Shown: positions 1,054 to 10,854 of the stretch, piece by piece
Position numbering within the stretch: the stretch's first letter is position 1
Layout: each line of letters begins with the position of its first letter
Source: Deltaproteobacteria bacterium UBA2385
GTDB taxonomy: Bacteria > Myxococcota_A > UBA796 > UBA2385
Length of the DNA stretch: 10,854 nucleotides
Direction: 5' to 3'
Assembly (NCBI GenBank): GCA_002343455.1
Contig: DDSR01000450.1
Coordinates: 1-10,854, forward strand
The notes under the pieces: generated by a model
The model's input: only the letters and a program-made list of their open reading frames with translations
Told to the model about the DNA's origin: nothing
The model's database searches: none
Made by a program: the position numbers and the translations under genes

Positions 1054-1329
1054 CTACGCCACCCCGGGGGGCAGGGGCTCCAGGATGTCGATGATGCGCT
1101 GGGCCTGGTCGAGCGTGAAACGACGGCCGAGCATCCCGTGCTCCTGGGCGATGGCCACGATCAGGTTCTCGTGGACACCCGTGCGGGCGGCGATGTCCGC
1201 CGCGGTCACGAAGACGGGCGGCTCGTTCGCCGCGTCGTCGAGGTCAGCGGCGCCGGCCTCCCAGGGCGGCGGGGGGCGGCGGCGGCTCAGGGAGAGCTGG
1301 AGGGACAGGCGCAGGGTCAGGCGGGGCAT
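1054..1329 (-). CDS. Small putative helix-turn-helix protein (91 aa)
   Basis: Residues 41-83 (VTAADIAARTGVHENLIV... then RRFTLDQAQRIIDIL) read as a compact helix-turn-helix followed by a helix, similar in feel to MerR-like or small winged DNA-binding units. The N-terminal third (1-30) is basic and Pro-rich. The ATG at 1329 is preceded on its strand by GGAG six bases upstream, which decides the start over the longer frame at 1362. It lies directly upstream of the primase gene and probably shares its transcript. A likely role is local regulation or assistance in replication, but that is inference. Its first 86 bases overlap the end of the preceding small ORF, which is unusually long for an operon overlap. 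Confidence 0.6.
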   Translation of the reverse strand: MPRLTLRLSLQLSLSRRRPPPPWEAGAADLDDAANEPPVFVTAADIAARTGVHENLIVAIAQEHGMLGRRFTLDQAQRIIDILEPLPPGVA

Positions 1330-1558
1330 CGTGGCTCCGGGGTGGAGGGTCGTTGGCAGCACGGACGCCGCCCGGTCCCAGCCCCGCGCGGTCCTCGGCG
1401 TCCCAGGCGGCCAGGACGTCGTTGAACCGTCGGAACGTCCCCACGATCTCCTCCACCTCGTCGTCGCCGAGCGCGCGTCCGTACCGGGGCTCGAAGGCCG
1501 CGCGGACGGGGCCGGCGACCTCCTGGGCCAGGGTGTTGCGGGGCGCGCGACGGCTCAC
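1244..1558 (-). CDS. Small hypothetical protein (104 aa), acidic helical core with Pro-rich tail
   Basis: Not recognised as a named family. Residues 8-57 form a plausible helical domain (LAQEVAGPVRAAFEPRYGR, then DDEVEEIVGTFRRF and VLAAWDAED). Short accessory ORFs with a DDE-x-EI-x-F-x-L-x-W type core are common beside recombinases and phage genes. Residues 71-104 are Pro/Ala/Arg-rich and probably disordered. The GTG at 1558 is chosen because a strong GGGAGG lies five bases upstream. A longer version from ATG 1639 (131 aa) is possible but lacks properly spaced ribosome-binding bases. It would be the first gene of the small-ORF/primase group, reading away from the GATGAAC dyad upstream. Confidence 0.55.
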   Translation of the reverse strand: MSRRAPRNTLAQEVAGPVRAAFEPRYGRALGDDEVEEIVGTFRRFNDVLAAWDAEDRAGLGPGGVRAANDPPPRSHDAPPDPAPVPPALPEPPPPPAALGGRRR

Positions 1559-1666: not shown

Positions 1667-1717
1667 GATGAACACTCGATGAACGGTGGGCGCCGTTTCG
1701 TTCATCATCCGTTCATC
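1667..1717. promoter_or_regulatory. Four-site dyad of GATGAAC / GTTCATC, candidate operator or iteron cluster
   Basis: GATGAAC occurs at 1667-1673 and 1678-1684, and its complement GTTCATC at 1700-1706 and 1711-1717. Within each half the start-to-start distance is 11 bp, about one helical turn, and the halves face each other across 15 bp. A degenerate fifth copy, GATGATC, lies at 1648-1654. The right half overlaps the stop codon of the 742-residue gene, and the whole block sits before the small-ORF/primase group read leftwards. No T-run follows, so an intrinsic terminator is less likely than a binding site for two dimers. The bound protein is unknown; the small helix-turn-helix ORF at 1054-1329 is a candidate. 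Confidence 0.6.
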
Positions 1718-3933
1718 GGCGACGCCTCCCGCGACCACCACTCGACTCGGCTCGGCGGGACCCGGAGAACGTAGCCGCCGCCCGTCGTGGACTCGACCAG
1801 GTCCTCGGGCAGGTCGGGGTCGGCCTTCTTGCGGCCCGACGCCAGGGCCTTCATCAGCTTCTGGCGGTACTGCGGCCAGGACGCTCGCGAGGTCGGAGCG
1901 ACCACGTCGGGATGGGCGGCTTGCAGCTCCTCGAAGCTCACCGCCACGCCCGGGTCGCGGGCCAGGGCGCGCAGGAGGAGGCGGGCGGGCTGCTCGCGCT
2001 TCCCGAAGGTCACCGGCCGCCCGAAGCACCAGTACCGATCCCGGGCCGGGTCGAGGACCAGGTCGAAGCGGTCCCCGCAGAAGGCGGTGGGGTCGGCGTC
2101 CCGAAGGGTCCGCCGGTGGGCGTCGAGGAGAGGCCACAGGTCCACCGCCAGGTCTCCCCCCGCGACGGAGCCCGCCTTGTCGAGGCCCAGCACGAGCACT
2201 GCATCGAGGCGCGCGACATCCAGGACTCGGCCTGGCACCGCCGCGACGGACGACACCAGCAGGCAGGACAGGCCAGCGGAGCGGCGGCTGCGGACTACGT
2301 TCACGGCGGCGATCAGCTCGGCCTCGGCAGCGCCGGGCGAAAACCAGAAGTCGACCGTCGTCCCGCCGATGCGGCGCGTCCCCAGCGCCCAGATCCGCAC
2401 GCCGGGCTCCGGCGGCGCCTCGATGTCGCCCTCCGCCCCCACCGCGTCGCCGAGCACTTGGGCGAGCCCCACGAGGTTCAGCGAGTACCCGGCCGCCTTG
2501 CCCTTGCTCAGCGCCGTGCCTTCGCAGCGCGTGGGCTGGTCCCCACAGCGGTAGGTGCTGACGCCGTCGTCGTCGCGGTCCTGGAAGACCATGCGGCAAC
2601 CCTGGCCGGGGCCGAGGCCGCAAGGGTGGGTCGGCGCGGGCCCGCCAACAGGCTGGAGCAGTCCTGCGGCCGGCCCCGCCCCCTCCCCCAACAGCGCGTC
2701 CCACTCGGCGCGCGTCATCACGGCGTCCGCCTCGTCGGCCAGGGCCCGCCAGAGGTTGACCAGCGCGGCGGGTGGGACCCTCCCCCGCAGCCGCAGGAAG
2801 CCCCGGTCCACCAGCCACTCCTTGACGCAGTCGTGGGTCGCGTCCCGGTCGTAGCTGGTGCGGGCGCCCGCGTGTACCCGAACCGACGGCGCCGGCTTGC
2901 CGCGGATGAACTCGACCTTGAAGGCGGCGTGGCTGATCCGCCCGCGGGGCATCTTGACCTGGTCGAAGGTGACGAACAGGTCGTCGGAACGCCGGGTCAT
3001 GCGGTCGTGGACCACCGAGTTCCACTGGAACCCGATCTCGACCAGGGTGATCTTGTGGATGCCGTCGATGTGGTCCACGACAAGGGCGCCCCGGCCCAGG
3101 GTGCGCAAGGGCTCCAGGCTCACCCGCCCGGCCTCGGAGAAGCGGTCCTTGTCGCCGAAGGCGTGCAGCCCGACGACCTCCCGGTACTTCGTGGTCTCCG
3201 ACTTGCTCTTGGCGTGGACGCTCAGCTCCCGCCGGTCGGGGTGGTAGATCAGGACGTCGTAGTCCTCGGGGTGGCCCTGTTTCATCTCGTCGCCGCCGTC
3301 GTCGCCGATGTAGACCCGGCGCTCCCAGGGGGCCGGCTGCCGCACGATGAGCCAGGTGGCGGGCCCCTTGGACACCGGGATCAACCGGACGCCGCGAGCG
3401 CCCCGCTTCTCGTCGTAGAAGTCGTCCAGGTCGTTGATGATGGCCTTGAGCGCAGCCGCGCCGAAGTCCGGGGTGACCTCGGGCGCCTCGTCCTTCGGGT
3501 AGAAGGACTCGAAGGAGCGTGGGTTCGCCGAGCAGTGCTGGGCGTGGACCGTCCGCACCAGCTCCTGCCCCCGCTCGACGAGCCACAGCGCCACGACGAG
3601 ATCCTCGGGCGTCATCTTGGCCCCGGCCTCATCGCGCACCGTGGCGAAGCCCGCCTGCTCGGCGGCCAAGCACAGGGCGTCGTAGGCGTTGCTGTCCTTC
3701 CCGAAGTCGACGGCGTGGTAGAGCGCGTCCACGAGGCTGTCGGGGTAGCCCTCCCCGGGCGTGCCCAGCAGCTCGGCCACGTCGGTCAAGGGCAGCGGGT
3801 TCGCGGAGAGGTCGATGGAGTCGGCGACGTAGGAACCGCCGACCTGGCGCAGGAAGCCCCGAAGGCGCTGGGGTTCGATCTTGGCGAGTACGTCGGGCCG
3901 GGTCAGGCGACGGAAGTCGAGGCGATGGCTCAT
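1705..3933 (-). CDS. Uncharacterised 742-residue protein with Cys cluster and C-terminal winged helix
   Basis: Not recognised as a named family. Residues 1-170 are mostly helical. Residues 200-300 look like an alpha/beta domain with DYDVLIYHPDRRELSVHAKSK (225-245), followed by YREVVGLHAFGDKDRF. The D226...E236...K242 spacing is loosely nuclease-like but unproven. Cysteines at 438, 446, 463 and 470, in a Gly-rich stretch containing DRDDDGVSTYRCGD, could bind zinc. The last ~95 residues (SFEELQAAHPDV... and ...ESTTGGGYVLRVPP) resemble an OmpR/PhoB-type winged helix, so DNA binding is plausible. ATG 3933 has GAGG six bases upstream. It is divergent from the restriction-modification cassette, separated by the palindromic repeat block, and its stop lies in the GATGAAC dyad. 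No signal peptide or membrane segment is evident. A defence or regulatory role is a guess from context. Confidence 0.8.
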   Translation of the reverse strand: MSHRLDFRRLTRPDVLAKIEPQRLRGFLRQVGGSYVADSIDLSANPLPLTDVAELLGTPGEGYPDSLVDALYHAVDFGKDSNAYDALCLAAEQAGFATVRDEAGAKMTPEDLVVALWLVERGQELVRTVHAQHCSANPRSFESFYPKDEAPEVTPDFGAAALKAIINDLDDFYDEKRGARGVRLIPVSKGPATWLIVRQPAPWERRVYIGDDGGDEMKQGHPEDYDVLIYHPDRRELSVHAKSKSETTKYREVVGLHAFGDKDRFSEAGRVSLEPLRTLGRGALVVDHIDGIHKITLVEIGFQWNSVVHDRMTRRSDDLFVTFDQVKMPRGRISHAAFKVEFIRGKPAPSVRVHAGARTSYDRDATHDCVKEWLVDRGFLRLRGRVPPAALVNLWRALADEADAVMTRAEWDALLGEGAGPAAGLLQPVGGPAPTHPCGLGPGQGCRMVFQDRDDDGVSTYRCGDQPTRCEGTALSKGKAAGYSLNLVGLAQVLGDAVGAEGDIEAPPEPGVRIWALGTRRIGGTTVDFWFSPGAAEAELIAAVNVVRSRRSAGLSCLLVSSVAAVPGRVLDVARLDAVLVLGLDKAGSVAGGDLAVDLWPLLDAHRRTLRDADPTAFCGDRFDLVLDPARDRYWCFGRPVTFGKREQPARLLLRALARDPGVAVSFEELQAAHPDVVAPTSRASWPQYRQKLMKALASGRKKADPDLPEDLVESTTGGGYVLRVPPSRVEWWSREASPMNG

Positions 3934-4080
3934 GGGGGGCCTCGCGGAGGCGGGAGGTGGGGCTGCGGGCGGAGTGGTTTGCGGGAGCGAGGGCGGGGCA
4001 CGAAGCGCCAGCGACGCCGCGTGCGAGCGGATCTTAGCCCGGCGGCGGCCCGGCCACCGCGTCGGAGGCGGCCCTCGGTG

Positions 4081-4427
4081 GATGGCAGACCTGGCAGACC
4101 TTGGCAGACCTCAGCTCTCGGTAGGTCTGCCACGAATAGCTGCGCTGATACCCACACTTGTTGCCGATGGCAGACCTTGCGCGGAGCTGGCCGCCCCCCT
4201 TCGTGATCCGGCGTTTTTAATTTCGAGGACTCGGCTCCTCCTCCGCCGGTCTCCCGACCCCGACGACCGGCCGGACTCCTCCAGAAAAATGTACGCGCGC
4301 GCGTATGGCGGCGGGGGCGAGGTCTGCCAGGTCTGCCATCGGCCCTGGAAGCGCGACGGCAGGCCGATCCTCGGATGGCAGACCTGCCGGATCGTGAGGT
4401 CTGCCAAGGTCTGCCAGGTCTGCCATC
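4081..4427. repeat. Interrupted palindrome built from eleven GGCAGACC / GGTCTGCC units
   Basis: GGCAGACC starts at 4084, 4093, 4103, 4169 and 4377. Its complement GGTCTGCC starts at 4124, 4321, 4330, 4398, 4408 and 4417. The outer triplets form a perfect 33-bp inverted repeat (4081-4113 against 4395-4427), and a second inverted pair (4123-4132 against 4376-4385) continues the symmetry inwards. An inner 15-bp pair (4163-4177 against 4329-4343) adds a third level. Units in the tandem blocks are 9-10 bp apart, near one helical turn, and the spacing 9,10 on the left mirrors 10,9 on the right. The layout suggests a multi-protein binding array such as an origin, partition site or shared operator. 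With its terminal inverted repeats it could also be a small miniature element, although no target-site duplication is visible. Confidence 0.85.
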
Positions 4428-4439
4428 GGGGCACTGGAG

Positions 4440-4511
4440 AGGGTCATGTTCGACTCCTGACCCTGCGGAGGTCGTTGCCGCGCCCTCCCCGTGCGCCAGC
4501 ACGGACCTCCG
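4440..4511. promoter_or_regulatory. Two dyads in the methyltransferase leader, candidate operator or RNA hairpins
   Basis: AGGGTCA at 4440-4446 faces TGACCCT at 4458-4464 across 11 bases. Immediately after, CGGAGGTC at 4466-4473 faces GACCTCCG at 4504-4511, with a nested GTGC/GCAC pair (4491-4494, 4499-4502). Both lie in the leader of the methyltransferase, 130-200 bases before its start. They could be operators for autoregulation of the restriction-modification cassette or structures in its mRNA leader. No controller (C) protein gene is seen, so another form of control would be expected. The short arms in GC-rich DNA limit confidence. Confidence 0.35.
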
Positions 4512-4637
4512 GTCACGCCCGCGCAGGCTGCACTCGGGCCCATGTCGACGTCGGACGTTCAGCGTTCCAGGCCATCAACCCGTCGCGGGTCCACCGCGGC
4601 AGGCGGCGCGCCGCCCCCTGATCGTGATAGGATCGAG

Positions 4638-6044
4638 ATGGACTTCGATGCCGCGCTGCCCTGGTCCCCCAGCTCCTCCATCCACGCCCCCGACAACTCC
4701 CGCCACATCATCCCCACTCCTCTCCGCGAGCCCATGCCCACCATCCTCCCTCCCCTGAAGTTCAAGGTCGTCGATCTCTTCTGCGGTGCAGGTGGCCTGT
4801 CCGAGGGCTTCCGGCAAGCGGGCTGCACCATCGTGGCTGGCGTCGATCACGACCCCGATGCAGTCGCGACCTACGCCCACAACTTCCCCGAGGCAGAAGC
4901 GATCTGCGGCGATGTTCGCCAGGCAGCCGTGCGCAAGCGGATCATGGAGGTGGCGGCCGGTTGCGAGGTCGTTGTCGGTGGCCCTCCCTGCCAAGCGTTC
5001 TCTCAGGTCCGCAACCACGTACGGCTCATCGACGACGGCCGGAACAGCCTCTACCGCGAGTTTGTCACGATCGTACAGGCGCTCCAGCCCGCCATGTTCG
5101 TGATGGAGAACGTGCCCGGCATGGACCAGATGGGCGTGCGCGATCAGATCGAAGAAGACCTCGCCATCGGCGGCAGGTACTCGGTTCGATCGAAGAAGCT
5201 GGACGCCGCTGATTTCGGTGTCCCTCAGACACGAGAGCGGCTGATCTTCATCGGGGTGAGGAGAGACCTTGGCTTCGAGGTGCCCGAGGTGAAGGGGACC
5301 GGTGCTGTGCAGCGAACTGCGCTTGTGCGAACGATGATAGGGGGCAAGGTCGAGTACGTCGTGACGAGCAGCGGCGAGATGCAGGACCGCTTGGCGCTGG
5401 AAGATCCCAACAACACTTCCGTCACAACGGTTGAGCAGGCGATCAGTGACCTTCATGGCCTAAAGGCGGGCAACCGCGCGGACTCCTTGCCCTACTCTCA
5501 GCTCGCCGCACCACAGTCTGAGTACCAGCGACGGATGAGGGACTCGTCATCGCACATCCTGACCAACGTCCAAGTGCCCCGGATGATTGAAGATACCAGG
5601 CTCCGCCTCAGGGCGATTCCAGACGGAGGGAACTATCGAGACCTGCCCGAGAACCTCCAGGCCCGCTACATCACCGGCGAGAAGTGGGGCCAGCACAACG
5701 GCTCTGGCAAGCTGACTCGGAAGCACTACTATGCATATCGACGGCTCCACCGTGGGATCTGGGCGTGGACCTTGAACACGAAGGCCGATGCCGCCTACCA
5801 CTACGCGGTGCCTCGCGCCCTTTCCGTCCGTGAGTTCGCGCGACTTCAAAGCTTCCCCGACCGGTTTACGTTCACGACCGACGCGCGGAAGGGCGCATTG
5901 CCTGGCCGGATCGACGGTGGCGCAGCCCACAGCCGGTACCGGCAGGTTGGAAACGCGGTCCCGCCGCTTCTCGCCTATGCGATTGCTTGCACACTGCAGG
6001 GGGCGCTCGTCGAGGCAGAGAACGCTCGGACCCGGACGGCGTGA
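4638..6044 (+). CDS. DNA (cytosine-5-)-methyltransferase of a type II restriction-modification system
   Basis: Transfers a methyl group from S-adenosylmethionine to C5 of cytosine in a specific DNA site, protecting host DNA from the partner nuclease. All key C5 motifs are present in the 468-residue product: motif I VDLFCGAGGLSEGF (45-58), motif IV GGPPCQAFS (114-122) with catalytic C118, motif VI ENVPG (157-161), motif VIII QTRERLIFIG (197-206), motif IX near 393-410 (RALSVREFARLQSFP) and motif X RYRQVGNAVPP (433-443). The target-recognition region falls between about 210 and 390, so specificity cannot be read. ATG 4638 has AGGA five bases upstream; ATG 4734 (436 aa) is a fallback start. The stop overlaps the nuclease start by one base. 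Third codon positions are more mixed than in flanking genes, consistent with transfer as a cassette. Confidence 0.96.
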   Translation: MDFDAALPWSPSSSIHAPDNSRHIIPTPLREPMPTILPPLKFKVVDLFCGAGGLSEGFRQAGCTIVAGVDHDPDAVATYAHNFPEAEAICGDVRQAAVRKRIMEVAAGCEVVVGGPPCQAFSQVRNHVRLIDDGRNSLYREFVTIVQALQPAMFVMENVPGMDQMGVRDQIEEDLAIGGRYSVRSKKLDAADFGVPQTRERLIFIGVRRDLGFEVPEVKGTGAVQRTALVRTMIGGKVEYVVTSSGEMQDRLALEDPNNTSVTTVEQAISDLHGLKAGNRADSLPYSQLAAPQSEYQRRMRDSSSHILTNVQVPRMIEDTRLRLRAIPDGGNYRDLPENLQARYITGEKWGQHNGSGKLTRKHYYAYRRLHRGIWAWTLNTKADAAYHYAVPRALSVREFARLQSFPDRFTFTTDARKGALPGRIDGGAAHSRYRQVGNAVPPLLAYAIACTLQGALVEAENARTRTA

Positions 6045-7096
6045 TGTACCCGCAAGATCTCCTGGAACGGCCCTTTGGAGCCGAGAGCCGGCGGTTTCTG
6101 ATCCGACAGTATCTGGATTCGGTCGGGGTGGTGACGCCAGAGGATGCCTGGAAGCACGTCTACCGACTGCTGATGTGGATCGACCCCACCACCTCCCTCG
6201 CCCACTGCTACGAGAGCGACAAGTCCCAGCCCGGTCGCCATTGGTACGACCGGAGCATGGCCTTCCACGCATGGCTTTCGGCCGCTCTTGGGTCTTCACC
6301 GCGAACCCTGCATCGCGAGATCGACATCCTGTTCAAGGGTGTGATCTCGATCCTGGCTGTCGTGGAGGCTGAGGAGAAAGACAAGCGCCGAAAGAACGCG
6401 CTACGCCAACGGGCTGACTTCGACGCGGACATGCCCGACGCCACGGGGGATCCGGACCTCATCGAGAACATCTCCGCAATGCTCGCTCAGCACTATGGAA
6501 CCGCTCCGAGCGAGGCACTGGTGTCGGAAATCATCGACACGGTCACACAGGACCTGTACCGCGAGAACAAGCGCAAGAACCTGCTCGGCGAAGGCTTCGA
6601 GGACACGCTGGCCTCGGTCATCCGCGAGTGCGCGGGCGCGTCTTCGCTGGAGGTTCACAATCGCGCCCTCCTGCACGACTTGCCTGGCTTTCGCGAGCCA
6701 CCCAAGCACGAGAAGGCGCGAGCCGTGGACTTGGCGGTGGTTTCGAAGACTACCGGCCATCGGTCGCTCGCCACGGTCAAGTGGAGCGTCCGGGCCGATC
6801 GCGAGGAGCAGTTCACCATCGACCTGGACACGTATTCGCGCATGGAGTTCGACGGGCAACCGTTCTCGTTCGTGTTCTTGACCAACGAGTTCGACGCAGC
6901 CCGGCTGGTGGCGGCATGTCGACGCCGTCATGGACATCGCCTGATGTTCGATGCGGTGGTTCACATGAATCCCGAGGCCCTGGTGGCAGTACACTCGTTG
7001 AAGACGCGCGCGAAGGCCAACGATCTTTTGGAGCACATCAACGAAGGCAGGTTGATCAGCCTCGGTCAGTGGATCCGCAACCTGGAGGCGAGCTGA
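6044..7096 (+). CDS. Putative type II restriction endonuclease (PD-(D/E)XK-like), partner of the upstream methyltransferase
   Basis: Expected to cut DNA at the site protected by the upstream methyltransferase. Its ATG overlaps the methyltransferase stop in TGATG, typical of coupled modification-restriction genes; this context is the strongest evidence. In the 350-residue product the N-terminal half is helical. The C-terminal half carries a nuclease-like core: RKNLLGEGFEDTLASVIREC (177-196, with E184/E187 on a helix), then VDLAVVSK (228-235, D229), then LATVKWSVRADREEQF (242-257, K246, R250, D252, R253). K-x-S-x-R-x-D-R after a strand is seen in several type II nucleases. The residue two before K246 is Thr rather than Asp/Glu, so the second acidic ligand may be relocated. 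Specificity and family are unknown. No transmembrane segment or signal peptide is seen. Confidence 0.75.
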   Translation: MYPQDLLERPFGAESRRFLIRQYLDSVGVVTPEDAWKHVYRLLMWIDPTTSLAHCYESDKSQPGRHWYDRSMAFHAWLSAALGSSPRTLHREIDILFKGVISILAVVEAEEKDKRRKNALRQRADFDADMPDATGDPDLIENISAMLAQHYGTAPSEALVSEIIDTVTQDLYRENKRKNLLGEGFEDTLASVIRECAGASSLEVHNRALLHDLPGFREPPKHEKARAVDLAVVSKTTGHRSLATVKWSVRADREEQFTIDLDTYSRMEFDGQPFSFVFLTNEFDAARLVAACRRRHGHRLMFDAVVHMNPEALVAVHSLKTRAKANDLLEHINEGRLISLGQWIRNLEAS

Positions 7097-7208: not shown

Positions 7209-7859
7209 CTACGCTGCCTCCCGCTCGCCGGCCTCCCGCGCCACCGGCCACTGCCCGGCCTCCTCCAGCCGGCGACGCAGGGTGGCGCGCGGCACCTTGA
7301 GGATCCGGGCCACGTCCTTGAGCCCCCGCCCCTCCCGGAGCAGCGCCACGGCGGGCCGTAGGTCGATCTCCATGCGCGGCCGGCCGCAGTGCTTCCCGGC
7401 AGCCTGGGCGCGGCGGATGCCAGCGACGACGCGCTCTTGGATGAGGTCGCGCTCGAAGGCCGCGAAGGCGGCGATCATGGCGGTGAAGAGGCGCCCGGCA
7501 GGCGTGGTGGAGTCGAGGCCCTGGTCGCGGAGCGAGACGAAGGCGACCCCCTGGGCATTGAGCTGATCTAGCGTCGCTAGGACGTGCTGGAGGCTACGCC
7601 CGAGGCGGTCGAGCTTCCAGACGGCCACGATGTCGAGCTTGCCAGCCTGGGCGTCGGCGAGCATACGGTCGAGTCCGGGGCGCGAGGTCTTGACCCCGCT
7701 CACCCCTGAATCTTCGTAGACCCCCGCGATCTCCCACCCCCGCTGCTCGGCGACCTGGCGCAGCTCGTCAACCTGGAGGCCCACGTCTTGGCCGTGGCCG
7801 ATGGTAGAGACCCGCACGTAGAGCGCGGCGCGGGGCTTGGTGGGCTTCGAGGTGGCCAT
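7209..7859 (-). CDS. Small serine recombinase (resolvase/invertase family)
   Basis: Site-specific recombinase that cuts DNA through a serine nucleophile and resolves or inverts DNA segments. The 216-residue product has the complete small-serine-recombinase plan: YVRVST at 14-19 with catalytic S18, a GLQVDELRQ helix, YEDSGVSG at 48-55, the WKLDRLGRS active-site segment (81-89), the long E helix containing AAFAAFERDLIQERV (130-144), and a C-terminal helix-turn-helix (GRPR... GLKDVARILKVPRATLRRRL, 179-198). Length is normal for Hin/Tn3-type resolvases, and nothing suggests inactivation. ATG 7859 is chosen; a TTG at 7877 would add six residues and neither start has a strong Shine-Dalgarno. It lies 59 bases past the GHKL gene in the same direction, and may be co-transcribed. 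Invertase versus resolvase cannot be decided without finding its sites. Confidence 0.93.
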   Translation of the reverse strand: MATSKPTKPRAALYVRVSTIGHGQDVGLQVDELRQVAEQRGWEIAGVYEDSGVSGVKTSRPGLDRMLADAQAGKLDIVAVWKLDRLGRSLQHVLATLDQLNAQGVAFVSLRDQGLDSTTPAGRLFTAMIAAFAAFERDLIQERVVAGIRRAQAAGKHCGRPRMEIDLRPAVALLREGRGLKDVARILKVPRATLRRRLEEAGQWPVAREAGEREAA

Positions 7860-7918
7860 GGGCTTCGAGTACCACAAGGGGGGTCCACGGGCCCGACGAT
7901 TCGCTTACCGCCTGCGCT

Positions 7919-10405
7919 TCAGCGGGAGAACGCCCCCCGCACCACCGCCACCAGCTCCCCCCGCCGCCGGCCGAGGAAGGCATCGACGTACTCGGCATCC
8001 ACACCGGCCGGCGGGTTCGCCCGCAGCGCAGCCGCCGCCGCGTCGAGCAGCCGCTCGGCGTCGAGCCCGCCACGCGGAGCCGGCGCCGCTCCCCGCAGCC
8101 GCTCCCGCTCGCGTTCCAGGGCGGCGATCCTTGCCCGCTGCTCCTTCACCGCGGTCCGGGCCTGGTCGAGCTGCCGCACCAGCTTCGCCGCGCGCCGGGC
8201 GTCCGGGCTGGGCGCCTCGGGCAGACGTAGGAGCTTGCTCACCAGCACGGCGATGGCGGGCAGGAGGTGCGCCGTTGCTGCCCCCAGGTCCTCTCGCGCC
8301 GCGATGAAGGACTCGTCGTGGCCCAACCCCATCCTGCCATCGAGGTGGCTCAGCTCGTGGACGGCGATCCCGTGCAAGAACGCGGCGATGGCGAGGGGCC
8401 GCTCGCGGTGGGCCTTCACGACCTGGGCGAAGCGGTCGGGGTGGATGAAGATGAACCGGCGCGGGCCGGGGCGCTCGATGGCCTCGCCGACCACACCATC
8501 GTCGAGCACGAAGCCAGGCCGGAAGGCGCGGCGGATGCGGGCCTCGGAGGCGACCAGGCGCAGGGTGCCGTCCCAGGCGAGCAAGTAGGGGACCCACTTC
8601 GCGTAGCCCTTTTTGAACCGGTACGCGCGTCCCCGGTCGTAGGTCTTCTTCGCGATGCGCAGGCCGGCGAAGCGGCCGAAGGGGTTGCGCACGCGCCGGC
8701 CTTCGGCCTTGTCGAGCGACCGGGCCCAGCTCGGGGTGAGCGCGTCCAGCGCGCCGTGGGCCTTGGAGACTGCGACGGCCTGGAGCAGCCCGCCGCCGCC
8801 GGGGGCGAGGGCTGCCTCGGCAGCGCGGTCGATGGCGGCTTCGACGGCCTGGGTCTGCCAGCCGTCGAGCTGCTGGCCGACCTCGGCGCGACGGAGGGCC
8901 TGGTCCACCTCCTCGGTGACGACGACGGCGAGCGCGCCGCCCGCGGCCCGGCCCGCCGCGTCGGCCTCGGTGAGCACGGCGCGCAGCACTCGGGCCGCCG
9001 CCACCTCGGAGGGGGCCTCGATGTCGGGCTCGACCTGGGCTTCGCGCGCGGCGGCGATGCCAGCGGGCAGCACCCAGCCTCGGCGCGGTTCTTCGTCGGC
9101 GGGGCTGGCCTTGGTGCCGCGGGGCGCGGCCGAGGCGACGGGCTCCTCGATCCCGGCGTACTTCGACTGCTCCACGTAGAAGTCGAGGATGCCCCCGGCG
9201 GCCTCGGCGATGGCCCGGCGCACATCGGCGTCGGCGAAGGCGTCGGCCATCTGCGCGGCGATGTCGGCGCCGGTGCCCTCGCTGTCGTCGTCGCCCTCGG
9301 GGTCGATGAACTCGTCCTCCTCCGAGGCGCCCACCGACTCCGACTCCTTCTCGACCTCCTCGACGAGATCGGCGAAGGTCCAGGCGGCGCGGTCCTGGAG
9401 GCTGTCGCGCGCAGCATTGAAGGGGTAGCCCCGATGCCCCGGCCGGACTGTAGTGGTCAAGTCGATCACTACGTCCGCTTTGAGGTTTCCGCGCTGGGCA
9501 GGGAACTTGACCTGGAACAGGCCGTTGAGGCGCAGGTACCAGGCGCCGCCACGATCCCCGGGCGGGCGGCGGTACGCCTTGACCGCCGCCGAGGTTCCTT
9601 CGCCCCAGGAGCCTTCGACGGCGACGCGGGAGCCGCCTCGCCGGCTGAACATCGGGCGGACCTCCTCGCCGTTGAAGACGAAGGTGAAGCCGGGCAGATC
9701 GTTGGCGGCCAGCAGCTCGCGCAGCCGGTCCTCGATGTCCACGTGGACGCCGCGGGCGCGGTCCCAATACCGGACCAGCTCGGGGTCGATGTCATGGACG
9801 GTGAGCGAGGTCCCCTGGCGCGGCGGGGCATCGTAGACCTGCACGTCCCGGTCGATGCCGTCGGCGATGGCGAGGTTGTCGCGGGTGTGCATGGACCACT
9901 TGAAGGAGCGGGACACGCCGAGGATCACGGCCTTCGCCACGCCGAAGCCCCCGGCGGCCTGGCCGGAGTCGTCGGCGTCCCGCTTGCCGCTCTCGCCGAT
10001 AGCCAGGAACTTCCCGATGATGTCCTCGGCGCTCATGCCGATCCCGTTGTCCGCCCAGGTCAACGAGCCCGCGGCGGCGTCCCAGGTGACCTCAAAGCGG
10101 CCCTCGCCGGCCTTGATCTGGCGGGCGCGGATCGCTGCTCTTGCCGCGTCAAGTCCATTTTGAGCCGCCTCCCTCGTGGCAAGCCAGGGAAGATCGCCGC
10201 TTCTGTAGACCGAGCGCGTGAGCAGGAGCCAGAGGGTGCCCACGTTCGCGGAGGGGCGGCCGGCCAGCTTGCTCGTCATGGCCTCGCGGACCTCGGCGAC
10301 TCCGGCCAGCTCCTGGCGCAGGGCGGCGCGGTCGATGCGGACCCGGCCGGTGGCCTTGGGTTCGGCGCCGGGCGCGGGGACGGGGTGAGAGCAGGAGCAC
10401 GTCAT
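7919..10405 (-). CDS. GHKL (Hsp90/MutL/MORC-type) ATPase with C-terminal HExxH zincin motif
   Basis: An 828-residue protein. N-terminal GHKL ATP-binding fold: EAAQNGLDA (79-87, with E79 and N83), DNGIGM (119-124), the glycine-rich lid GGFGVAK (152-158) and GTSLTV (198-203). Residues ~235-336 (LRLNGLFQVKF, FNAARDSL) look like the following S5-type transducer domain. An acidic linker (347-378) and an Ala-rich helical middle follow. Near the C-terminus, VHELSHLDG with H683, E684 and H687 is a zinc-peptidase motif, and GHDESF with H696 could give the third ligand, as in SprT/WLM-like zincins. Residues ~735-772 suggest a coiled coil. ATG 10405 overlaps the upstream methyltransferase stop in ATGA, which fixes the start and implies coupled translation. 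MutL/MORC-like GHKL proteins are known from restriction-modification contexts. Joining to a zincin suggests ATP-gated proteolysis or remodelling of DNA-bound proteins; that is inference. Confidence 0.85.
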   Translation of the reverse strand: MTCSCSHPVPAPGAEPKATGRVRIDRAALRQELAGVAEVREAMTSKLAGRPSANVGTLWLLLTRSVYRSGDLPWLATREAAQNGLDAARAAIRARQIKAGEGRFEVTWDAAAGSLTWADNGIGMSAEDIIGKFLAIGESGKRDADDSGQAAGGFGVAKAVILGVSRSFKWSMHTRDNLAIADGIDRDVQVYDAPPRQGTSLTVHDIDPELVRYWDRARGVHVDIEDRLRELLAANDLPGFTFVFNGEEVRPMFSRRGGSRVAVEGSWGEGTSAAVKAYRRPPGDRGGAWYLRLNGLFQVKFPAQRGNLKADVVIDLTTTVRPGHRGYPFNAARDSLQDRAAWTFADLVEEVEKESESVGASEEDEFIDPEGDDDSEGTGADIAAQMADAFADADVRRAIAEAAGGILDFYVEQSKYAGIEEPVASAAPRGTKASPADEEPRRGWVLPAGIAAAREAQVEPDIEAPSEVAAARVLRAVLTEADAAGRAAGGALAVVVTEEVDQALRRAEVGQQLDGWQTQAVEAAIDRAAEAALAPGGGGLLQAVAVSKAHGALDALTPSWARSLDKAEGRRVRNPFGRFAGLRIAKKTYDRGRAYRFKKGYAKWVPYLLAWDGTLRLVASEARIRRAFRPGFVLDDGVVGEAIERPGPRRFIFIHPDRFAQVVKAHRERPLAIAAFLHGIAVHELSHLDGRMGLGHDESFIAAREDLGAATAHLLPAIAVLVSKLLRLPEAPSPDARRAAKLVRQLDQARTAVKEQRARIAALERERERLRGAAPAPRGGLDAERLLDAAAAALRANPPAGVDAEYVDAFLGRRRGELVAVVRGAFSR

Positions 10406-10854
10406 GCAGCGACCCTCCCGGGGACGGACACGCGACCCCGTCGCAGCGCGTGGGCCAGCTCGGCGCCGTCCACCCCGGCGGCTTGGAGGGCCAACCAGGC
10501 GCGGTGCGCGGCGAGCACGAGGCGCCCGGCGGCCTCGGCGAGGGCGGGCGGGACGGCGTTGCCGACCTGGGTGTACCGCTGGTGGACGGTGCCCTGGAGG
10601 GGCCAGTCGGAGGGGAGGCCCTGGAGGCGCAGGCCCTCGTCCAGGTCGATGCGGCGGATGCCGGCGACGAGGAAGGCGGCGTCAGAGGCCCGGTCAGGCC
10701 CGCCGTTGAAGCTCCAGTTCGCGACCGCGTTGGCCCGCGTGCCCTTCTCCTCGGCGGTGGTCACGGTGGGGGCGGGACGGTCGAGGCGCGAGGGCTCGGA
10801 ACAGGCGCGGCCGTGGTCCTCGTCGCAGGGGTAGCAGGCGCGGCGGTCGCAGGT
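10402..10854 (-). CDS. DNA (cytosine-5-)-methyltransferase, C-terminal part, cut by the window edge
   Basis: Only the last ~150 codons are inside the window and the frame stays open to position 10854, so the gene starts outside. The visible part contains RLDRPAPTVTTAEEKGT (from about 10798 leftwards), a substrate-loop-like stretch common in phage and plasmid Dcm-type enzymes. It is followed by motif IX (LDEGLRLQGLPSDW) and motif X (RYTQVGNAVPPALA). Motifs I, IV and VI with the catalytic Cys are not visible, so activity cannot be judged. A Cys-rich segment (CDRRACYPCDEDHGRAC) lies just upstream of the Pro-Thr-Val loop. The stop overlaps the GHKL start by four bases, ATGA. It is distinct from the methyltransferase at 4638-6044: different strand, different motif wording and matching the local high-GC codon use. 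Confidence 0.9.
   Translation of the reverse strand, partial: TCDRRACYPCDEDHGRACSEPSRLDRPAPTVTTAEEKGTRANAVANWSFNGGPDRASDAAFLVAGIRRIDLDEGLRLQGLPSDWPLQGTVHQRYTQVGNAVPPALAEAAGRLVLAAHRAWLALQAAGVDGAELAHALRRGRVSVPGRVAA

Follow-up and report, generated by a model that had tools for sequence, protein, structure and literature searches.

The question raised by this locus is what function may be served by a palindrome of 347 bp, built from many copies of one short unit, that fills much of the gap between two divergent genes. The palindrome lies at positions 4081-4427 of a 10,854-nt stretch of DNA (the window), contig C220 of the 6.76-Mb draft genome (496 contigs) of Deltaproteobacteria bacterium UBA2385. 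As described in the initial annotation, it is enclosed by a leftward 742-aa open reading frame (ORF; start 3933) and a rightward C5-methyltransferase ORF (longest start 4491). Four roles had been offered there: an iteron-type origin, a partition site, a shared operator or a cluster of sites for the adjacent methyltransferase/nuclease. The analysis presented here favors the first, as the array is very probably the replication origin of an integrated mobile element encoding its own primase-helicase.

Eleven exact copies of the 10-mer TGGCAGACCT, five forward and six reverse, were found to span 4083-4425 with zero mismatches, and the earlier unit count thus held for the extended unit as well. The motif GGCAGACC occurs twelve times in the window, eleven of them within 4084-4424, a number reached in none of 200 dinucleotide-preserving shuffles (mean 0.91, maximum 4). 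The sites are ordered +++-+, core, --+---, with gaps of 9, 10, 20 and 46 to the left of the core and 9, 48, 20, 10 and 9 to the right of it, in agreement with the mirrored spacing (9, 10 / 10, 9) noted before. Direct reading of the sequence also bore out the outer arms of 33 nt as a perfect inverted repeat, and across 52 nt the arms (4081-4132 and 4376-4427) are 88% complementary. The inverted repeat is interrupted by a core of about 130-140 bp and represents an eleven-site copy of a twelve-site layout: three sites of a 9-bp unit, one reversed, two, the core, and then the mirror image (for the coordinates see Table 1). The right half-array is complete and the left has five of its six sites; the sixth left site (f) is degenerate also in locus L006 and in the copy of the sister genome (L038). 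An AT content equal to that of the stretch beside the inner pair was reached by 1.2% of random segments. Neither a second array nor an Rfam match was found within the window, nor any DnaA box (TTATNCACA, up to one mismatch) as would be expected of a DnaA-dependent iteron plasmid.

Two more copies of the array were identified in the same genome, 90% and 89% identical and located on contigs C281 and C353, the latter containing an N gap. In a genome-wide check of the kind proposed by the initial annotation, tandem-unit patterns were confined to these three places. The immediate flanks of the three copies are unrelated, and no flanking direct repeats were seen. A further 1.6 kb of primase-end sequence (91% identity) is common to the window and C353 copies, which are therefore located in related elements. 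The sister genome carries one copy, which is 92% identical.

To follow the array beyond this genome, 186 genomes were searched, of which 37 gave any match to the primase and 15 contained strong relatives, on 28 contigs. The DNA around these genes was examined by k-mer counts and then by a layout detector, in both cases with no unit assumed. The same layout was found near this primase family in Myxococcota, Planctomycetota and uncultured phages, with a differing 9-bp unit. By our own tally an array is present on 18 of the 28 contigs, including C353, which was counted through homology (detector score 81), and a partial array on one more (G028:C77). In the Myxococcota arrays displayed, the units end in ACCT and the first five bases vary. 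Planctomycetota units are GCCGAACCT (L131), TTCCCTACG (L134) and AAGGGACGG (L140), and uncultured viral contigs carry TGTCTACGC and similar units. Some further features were observed at these loci. A borderline degenerate array on G046:C164 (L042 6090-6371, score 83) has unrelated genes as neighbors and is 41 kb away from the primase gene that this contig carries. Nine copies of CTGCTACA in the order ----+++++, not scored as the twelve-site layout, occur in Acidobacteriaceae (L136 near 5471, L137 near 4355), and L040 has, in addition to its main array, eight copies of CTTGCCGC at 12086-12316, six one way and two the other. Loci L124 and L127 are contigs of Myxococcota-type elements in records titled as a metagenome-assembled genome of Klebsiella pneumoniae, titles that look wrong.

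At least ten of the twelve sites, with at least 7 of 9 bases matching, were recovered in 18 of 22 scored arrays. The GC content of the core was below that of its locus in 20 of the 22, and 8 cores were clearly AT-enriched at the 5% level. The window scored 96 of 108 in the refined version of the detector, compared to a maximum of 78 in one block-shuffled copy (2.04 Mb); an earlier version reached at most 77 across two shuffled copies, and the first version reported zero arrays in a shuffled control of 1.67 Mb. As natural sequences picked for coding 9-nt repeats reached 84, scores of 81-84 alone prove little. Since the standard deviations of the layout gaps over the 22 arrays are partly set by the ranges the detector permits, a position-free listing of the units is better evidence: in L039, L040, L092 and L134 it gave the same twelve-site pattern, with gaps equal within two bases except for the core. 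Gaps deviated more in L131 (20, 11, 19, 49, 9), and in L098, L102 and L100 a reversed site is not recognizable in one or both halves. With relaxed seeds, loci lacking an array returned only low-complexity hits with scores of 77-81, which were not accepted. Tandem scans of viral contigs with AGGTCTGCCAGGTCTGCC yielded four stretches and no array, and those with TGTCTACGC five stretches, two of them with array and primase on contigs already known; AGGTAACC was a poor choice, coding repeats being among the matches listed. No array was found in corynephage BFK20, and a plasmid collection gave weak partial matches in 15 records, where arrays were not looked for.

The association with the primase-helicase gene was also observed when the search was blind to genes. 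Among the 186 genomes, a search at the DNA level returned eight arrays, seven with the primase gene on the same contig, and the five remaining weak matches hold no array. In 19 of 64 viral contigs identified by their primase domain, at least six exact copies of an 8-mer, on both strands, cluster near the gene (one of these clusters, in the AT-rich L148, may have arisen by chance); no such clustering occurred in 414 kb of these loci further away, and none after shuffling. In the 22 loci having both, the array lies 1.6-6.5 kb 5' of the primase gene in 15 (3.0 kb in the window) and directly 3' of it, by 2-321 bp, in seven. Of 29 loci, 18 encode a large serine recombinase with at least 46% identity; three of these 18 were the sources of the queries, and one (L092) gave a 74-residue match only. 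The distance between units tracks the distance between primases (rho 0.54, p 0.0015; residues 800-890, rho 0.67), a correlation that ancestry alone could cause. The element protein, intact in L007 and represented by its N-terminal part in the window, combines an AEP domain with an SF3-like helicase; as modelled, it resembles hexameric SF3 initiators and is predicted to end in a winged-helix-like domain. A sequence search of the PDB with the primase profile returned nothing relevant (best E 0.056, ribosome-recycling factor).

The closest known counterpart is the origin of phage P4. Its record (NC_001609) annotates six ori type 1 repeats, at 9310, 9320, 9331, 9353, 9396 and 9406, which correspond to one half of the array: six iterons in the order +++-++, with gaps of 10, 11, 22, 43 and 10 compared to 9, 10, 20-22, 45-47 and 9 here, an inner pair facing an AT-rich stretch, as it does in the window and, at the 5% level, in 8 of the 22 arrays, and a primase-helicase encoded by the replicon. 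The complete +++-++ order is found in L039, L040, L092 and L134. Given the inner pair, the four outer P4 sites match 35 of 36 bases at the positions of the layout, compared to a maximum of 23 in 2000 shuffles. P4 differs, however, in having one half only, in its unit GGTGAACA and in the location of ori1 about 2.1 kb 5' of alpha; its separate crr shows only a weak similarity to the other half (p 0.045 and 0.13).

Other replicons share parts of the arrangement. In the origins of Staphylococcus aureus pathogenicity islands (SaPI) and the putative Cch2 origin of staphylococcal cassette chromosome mec (SCCmec), iterons beside the helicase gene are recognized by a helicase with a DNA-binding C-terminal domain, and two hexamers of SaPI Rep appear to occupy the origin, according to PMC7581432. 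The fold of the SaPI5 primase-helicase matches that modelled for the element protein. The same source gives three iterons for the Cch2 origin, unlike the twelve-site layout (PMC7581432), and the SaPI type has its iterons directly downstream of rep, a position not taken by the array of the window but found in 7 of 22 relatives. In Streptococcus phage Sfi21 (NC_000872) the annotated origin, 302 bp of non-coding DNA, immediately follows a primase gene on its 3' side; convergent tandem pairs flank an AT-rich core of 69 bp there, but outer sites are unsupported (p 0.14). For pRN1, PMC4234260 describes an origin mapped by deletion, 3' of orf904, which its authors read as a stem-loop. This stem (L218 5087-5180) consists of two 9-bp-spaced units per arm with a TGGACA core, and these units may be bound by a protein instead of forming a structural stem; it differs from the layout in having the inner 2+2 units only, outer sites being unsupported (p 0.29). 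NrS-1 primase-polymerase has a related helicase fold and recognizes an 8-nt sequence, but with two recognition sites only in the entire genome (PMC7102993). Convergent pairs or clusters are also present in phi105, Cheetobro, AcaML1 and Acinetobacter phage 4316, in each case within the gap that follows the primase gene on its 3' side; PSA has dispersed sites in the corresponding gap. In BPP-1, two convergent pairs of the 9-bp unit TTGCCTCGT surround a core (L219 2608-2711; record 26607-26710) about 470 bp beyond the 3' end of the primase gene, past a small opposite-strand ORF. This feature may correspond to a stem-loop published for the related phage BIP-1 (PMC4234260), although its distance from the primase end leaves room for doubt.

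With the array, its conserved layout under a changing unit, the association with the primase-helicase gene, the agreement between one half and P4 ori1, and the predicted initiator-helicase-like fold at hand, we infer by analogy an origin of the P4/SaPI kind, in which short units would be bound by a hexameric primase-helicase. The element's own protein would contact the 9-bp units, probably through its C-terminal domain, and assemble on the two mirror-image half-arrays flanking the core, which would then be opened for replication to start in both directions. As each full half-array has six units, the simplest picture would be one hexamer per half, with two hexamers loaded head to head. A more far-reaching proposal, which we consider possible but lean slightly against, is that the spacing forms a code for loading of the initiator-helicase: six sites would template one hexamer and the mirror would set two head to head, P4 ori1 being a half-origin and the 2+2 arrangements of Sfi21 and pRN1 reduced forms, with the unit drifting along with the initiator and the spacing held across phyla. 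If so, the stem-loop reading of pRN1 would need revision, since spacing would be held while the unit drifts with the initiator.

Several observations weigh against an origin of this type. No array was found on 8 of the 28 primase contigs, namely G057:C147 (86 of 128 kb read), G051:C1285, G020:C145, G001:C373 (16 of 36 kb read), G037:C108, G051:C1114, G047:C160 and G029:C668. The annotated phages other than P4 share only the 2+2 inner sites, and outer sites were unsupported in all seven annotated phages or plasmids with an inner pair (p 0.06-0.95). In addition, the array of the window has lost one of its twelve sites, and this missing sixth left site, together with the 2+2 origins elsewhere, argues against a strict rule of one site per subunit.

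The location between divergent genes would also fit a shared operator or divergent promoter, through which a regulator bound to the units would control both flanking genes. Direct repeats of about 10 bp are recognized by proteins of the OmpR type, and the C-terminal end of the neighboring 742-aa protein resembles, by eye, an OmpR-like winged helix. The idea that this protein binds the array was dropped because the protein is missing from most loci with an array. An operator is nevertheless unlikely because in the seven loci mentioned above the array immediately follows the primase gene on its 3' side. Moreover, the neighbors change on both sides (C5-methyltransferase in the window, HsdM and HsdS in L006, a QatC-like protein and a type III methyltransferase in L038), P4 ori1 shows the same half layout, and a scan for sigma-70-like promoters, the one type covered, found none at 3800-4800. 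The same exchange of genes disfavors the suggestion that the units are sites for the adjoining restriction-modification proteins, as those genes vary by locus while the array persists.

Three copies with unrelated immediate flanks, and inverted ends with repeated sites, are features that a miniature inverted-repeat transposable element (MITE) or a pair of transposon ends moved by a unit-binding transposase would also have. The scattered copies with target duplications that the initial annotation had named as the mark of a MITE were, however, not observed, the genome holding two other copies only. Across phyla the layout recurs next to one and the same replication gene although the units differ, and the sequence shared with C353 places these copies in related elements, which makes transposition of the array itself highly improbable. 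We regard a partition (centromere-like) site of the element as equally implausible. Partition sites can be iteron arrays, and repeated sites on a mobile element would suit one, but the array associates with the primase-helicase and not with partition genes, no ParA or ParB was among the Pfam matches of the window, and the one ParB-type parS consensus covered (up to three mismatches) had no match there. Replication initiation by the element's primase-helicase thus remains the favored role.

Table 1. Array sites and genes of the window, with positions counted from its first nucleotide.
Feature	Position	Strand	Remarks
Primase-helicase, N-terminal 350 aa (AEP domain), truncated by contig end	3..1052	-	90% identity to intact 973-aa copy L007:3822-6743
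Small protein between primase and remaining genes	1054..1362	-	conserved in L007, L038; no Pfam/PHROGs match
742-aa orphan-family protein, starts 150 bp left of array; variable cargo slot	1705..3933	-	
Left outer triple (a, b, c)	4083..4111	+	TGGCAGACCT at 4083, 4092, 4102
Left reversed site (d)	4123..4132	-	
Left inner site (e)	4168..4177	+	
Place of sixth left site (f), degenerate: TGCGCGGAG	4178..4186	+	intact in L039, L040, L092, L134
Core between half-arrays	4187..4319	.	one AT-rich stretch (GTTTTTAATTTCGA region) and strongly conserved GCGCGCGCGTATGGCGGCGGGGGCG edge
Right inner pair (f', e')	4320..4338	-	
Right reversed site (d')	4376..4385	+	
Right outer triple (c', b', a')	4397..4425	-	at 4397, 4407, 4416
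C5-cytosine DNA methyltransferase; variable cargo slot, other side of array	4491..6044	+	
369-aa ORF after methyltransferase (overlapping); candidate nuclease partner by position only	5987..7096	+	no Pfam/PADLOC match
Small serine recombinase, resolvase/invertase type	7209..7877	-	

The 742-aa protein had no match in Pfam, PADLOC or PHROGs, and at least seven relatives were among the matches listed. It is 30% identical over about 390 residues to a protein beside the C353 array (L007:788-2056). The remainder of the window (7919-10854) encodes the C-terminus of a second C5-methyltransferase and a HATPase-like protein of 828 aa.

No report of the mirrored twelve-site layout was found in a full-text literature search whose reach excluded most papers behind subscription, the original P4 and SaPI work among them. 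The layout provides a rule by which the origins of such elements may be located from sequence alone, with no need to know the identity of the unit. It also connects P4 ori1, known from a single phage, with elements of Myxococcota and Planctomycetota and with uncultured phages. As the spacing is nearly fixed and the unit drifts, the placement of SF3 hexamers on an origin should be directly testable by altering the spacing and the number of sites. The analysis ties an unexplained palindrome to what are very probably self-replicating mobile elements, a class whose cargo includes restriction-modification and other defence-like genes.
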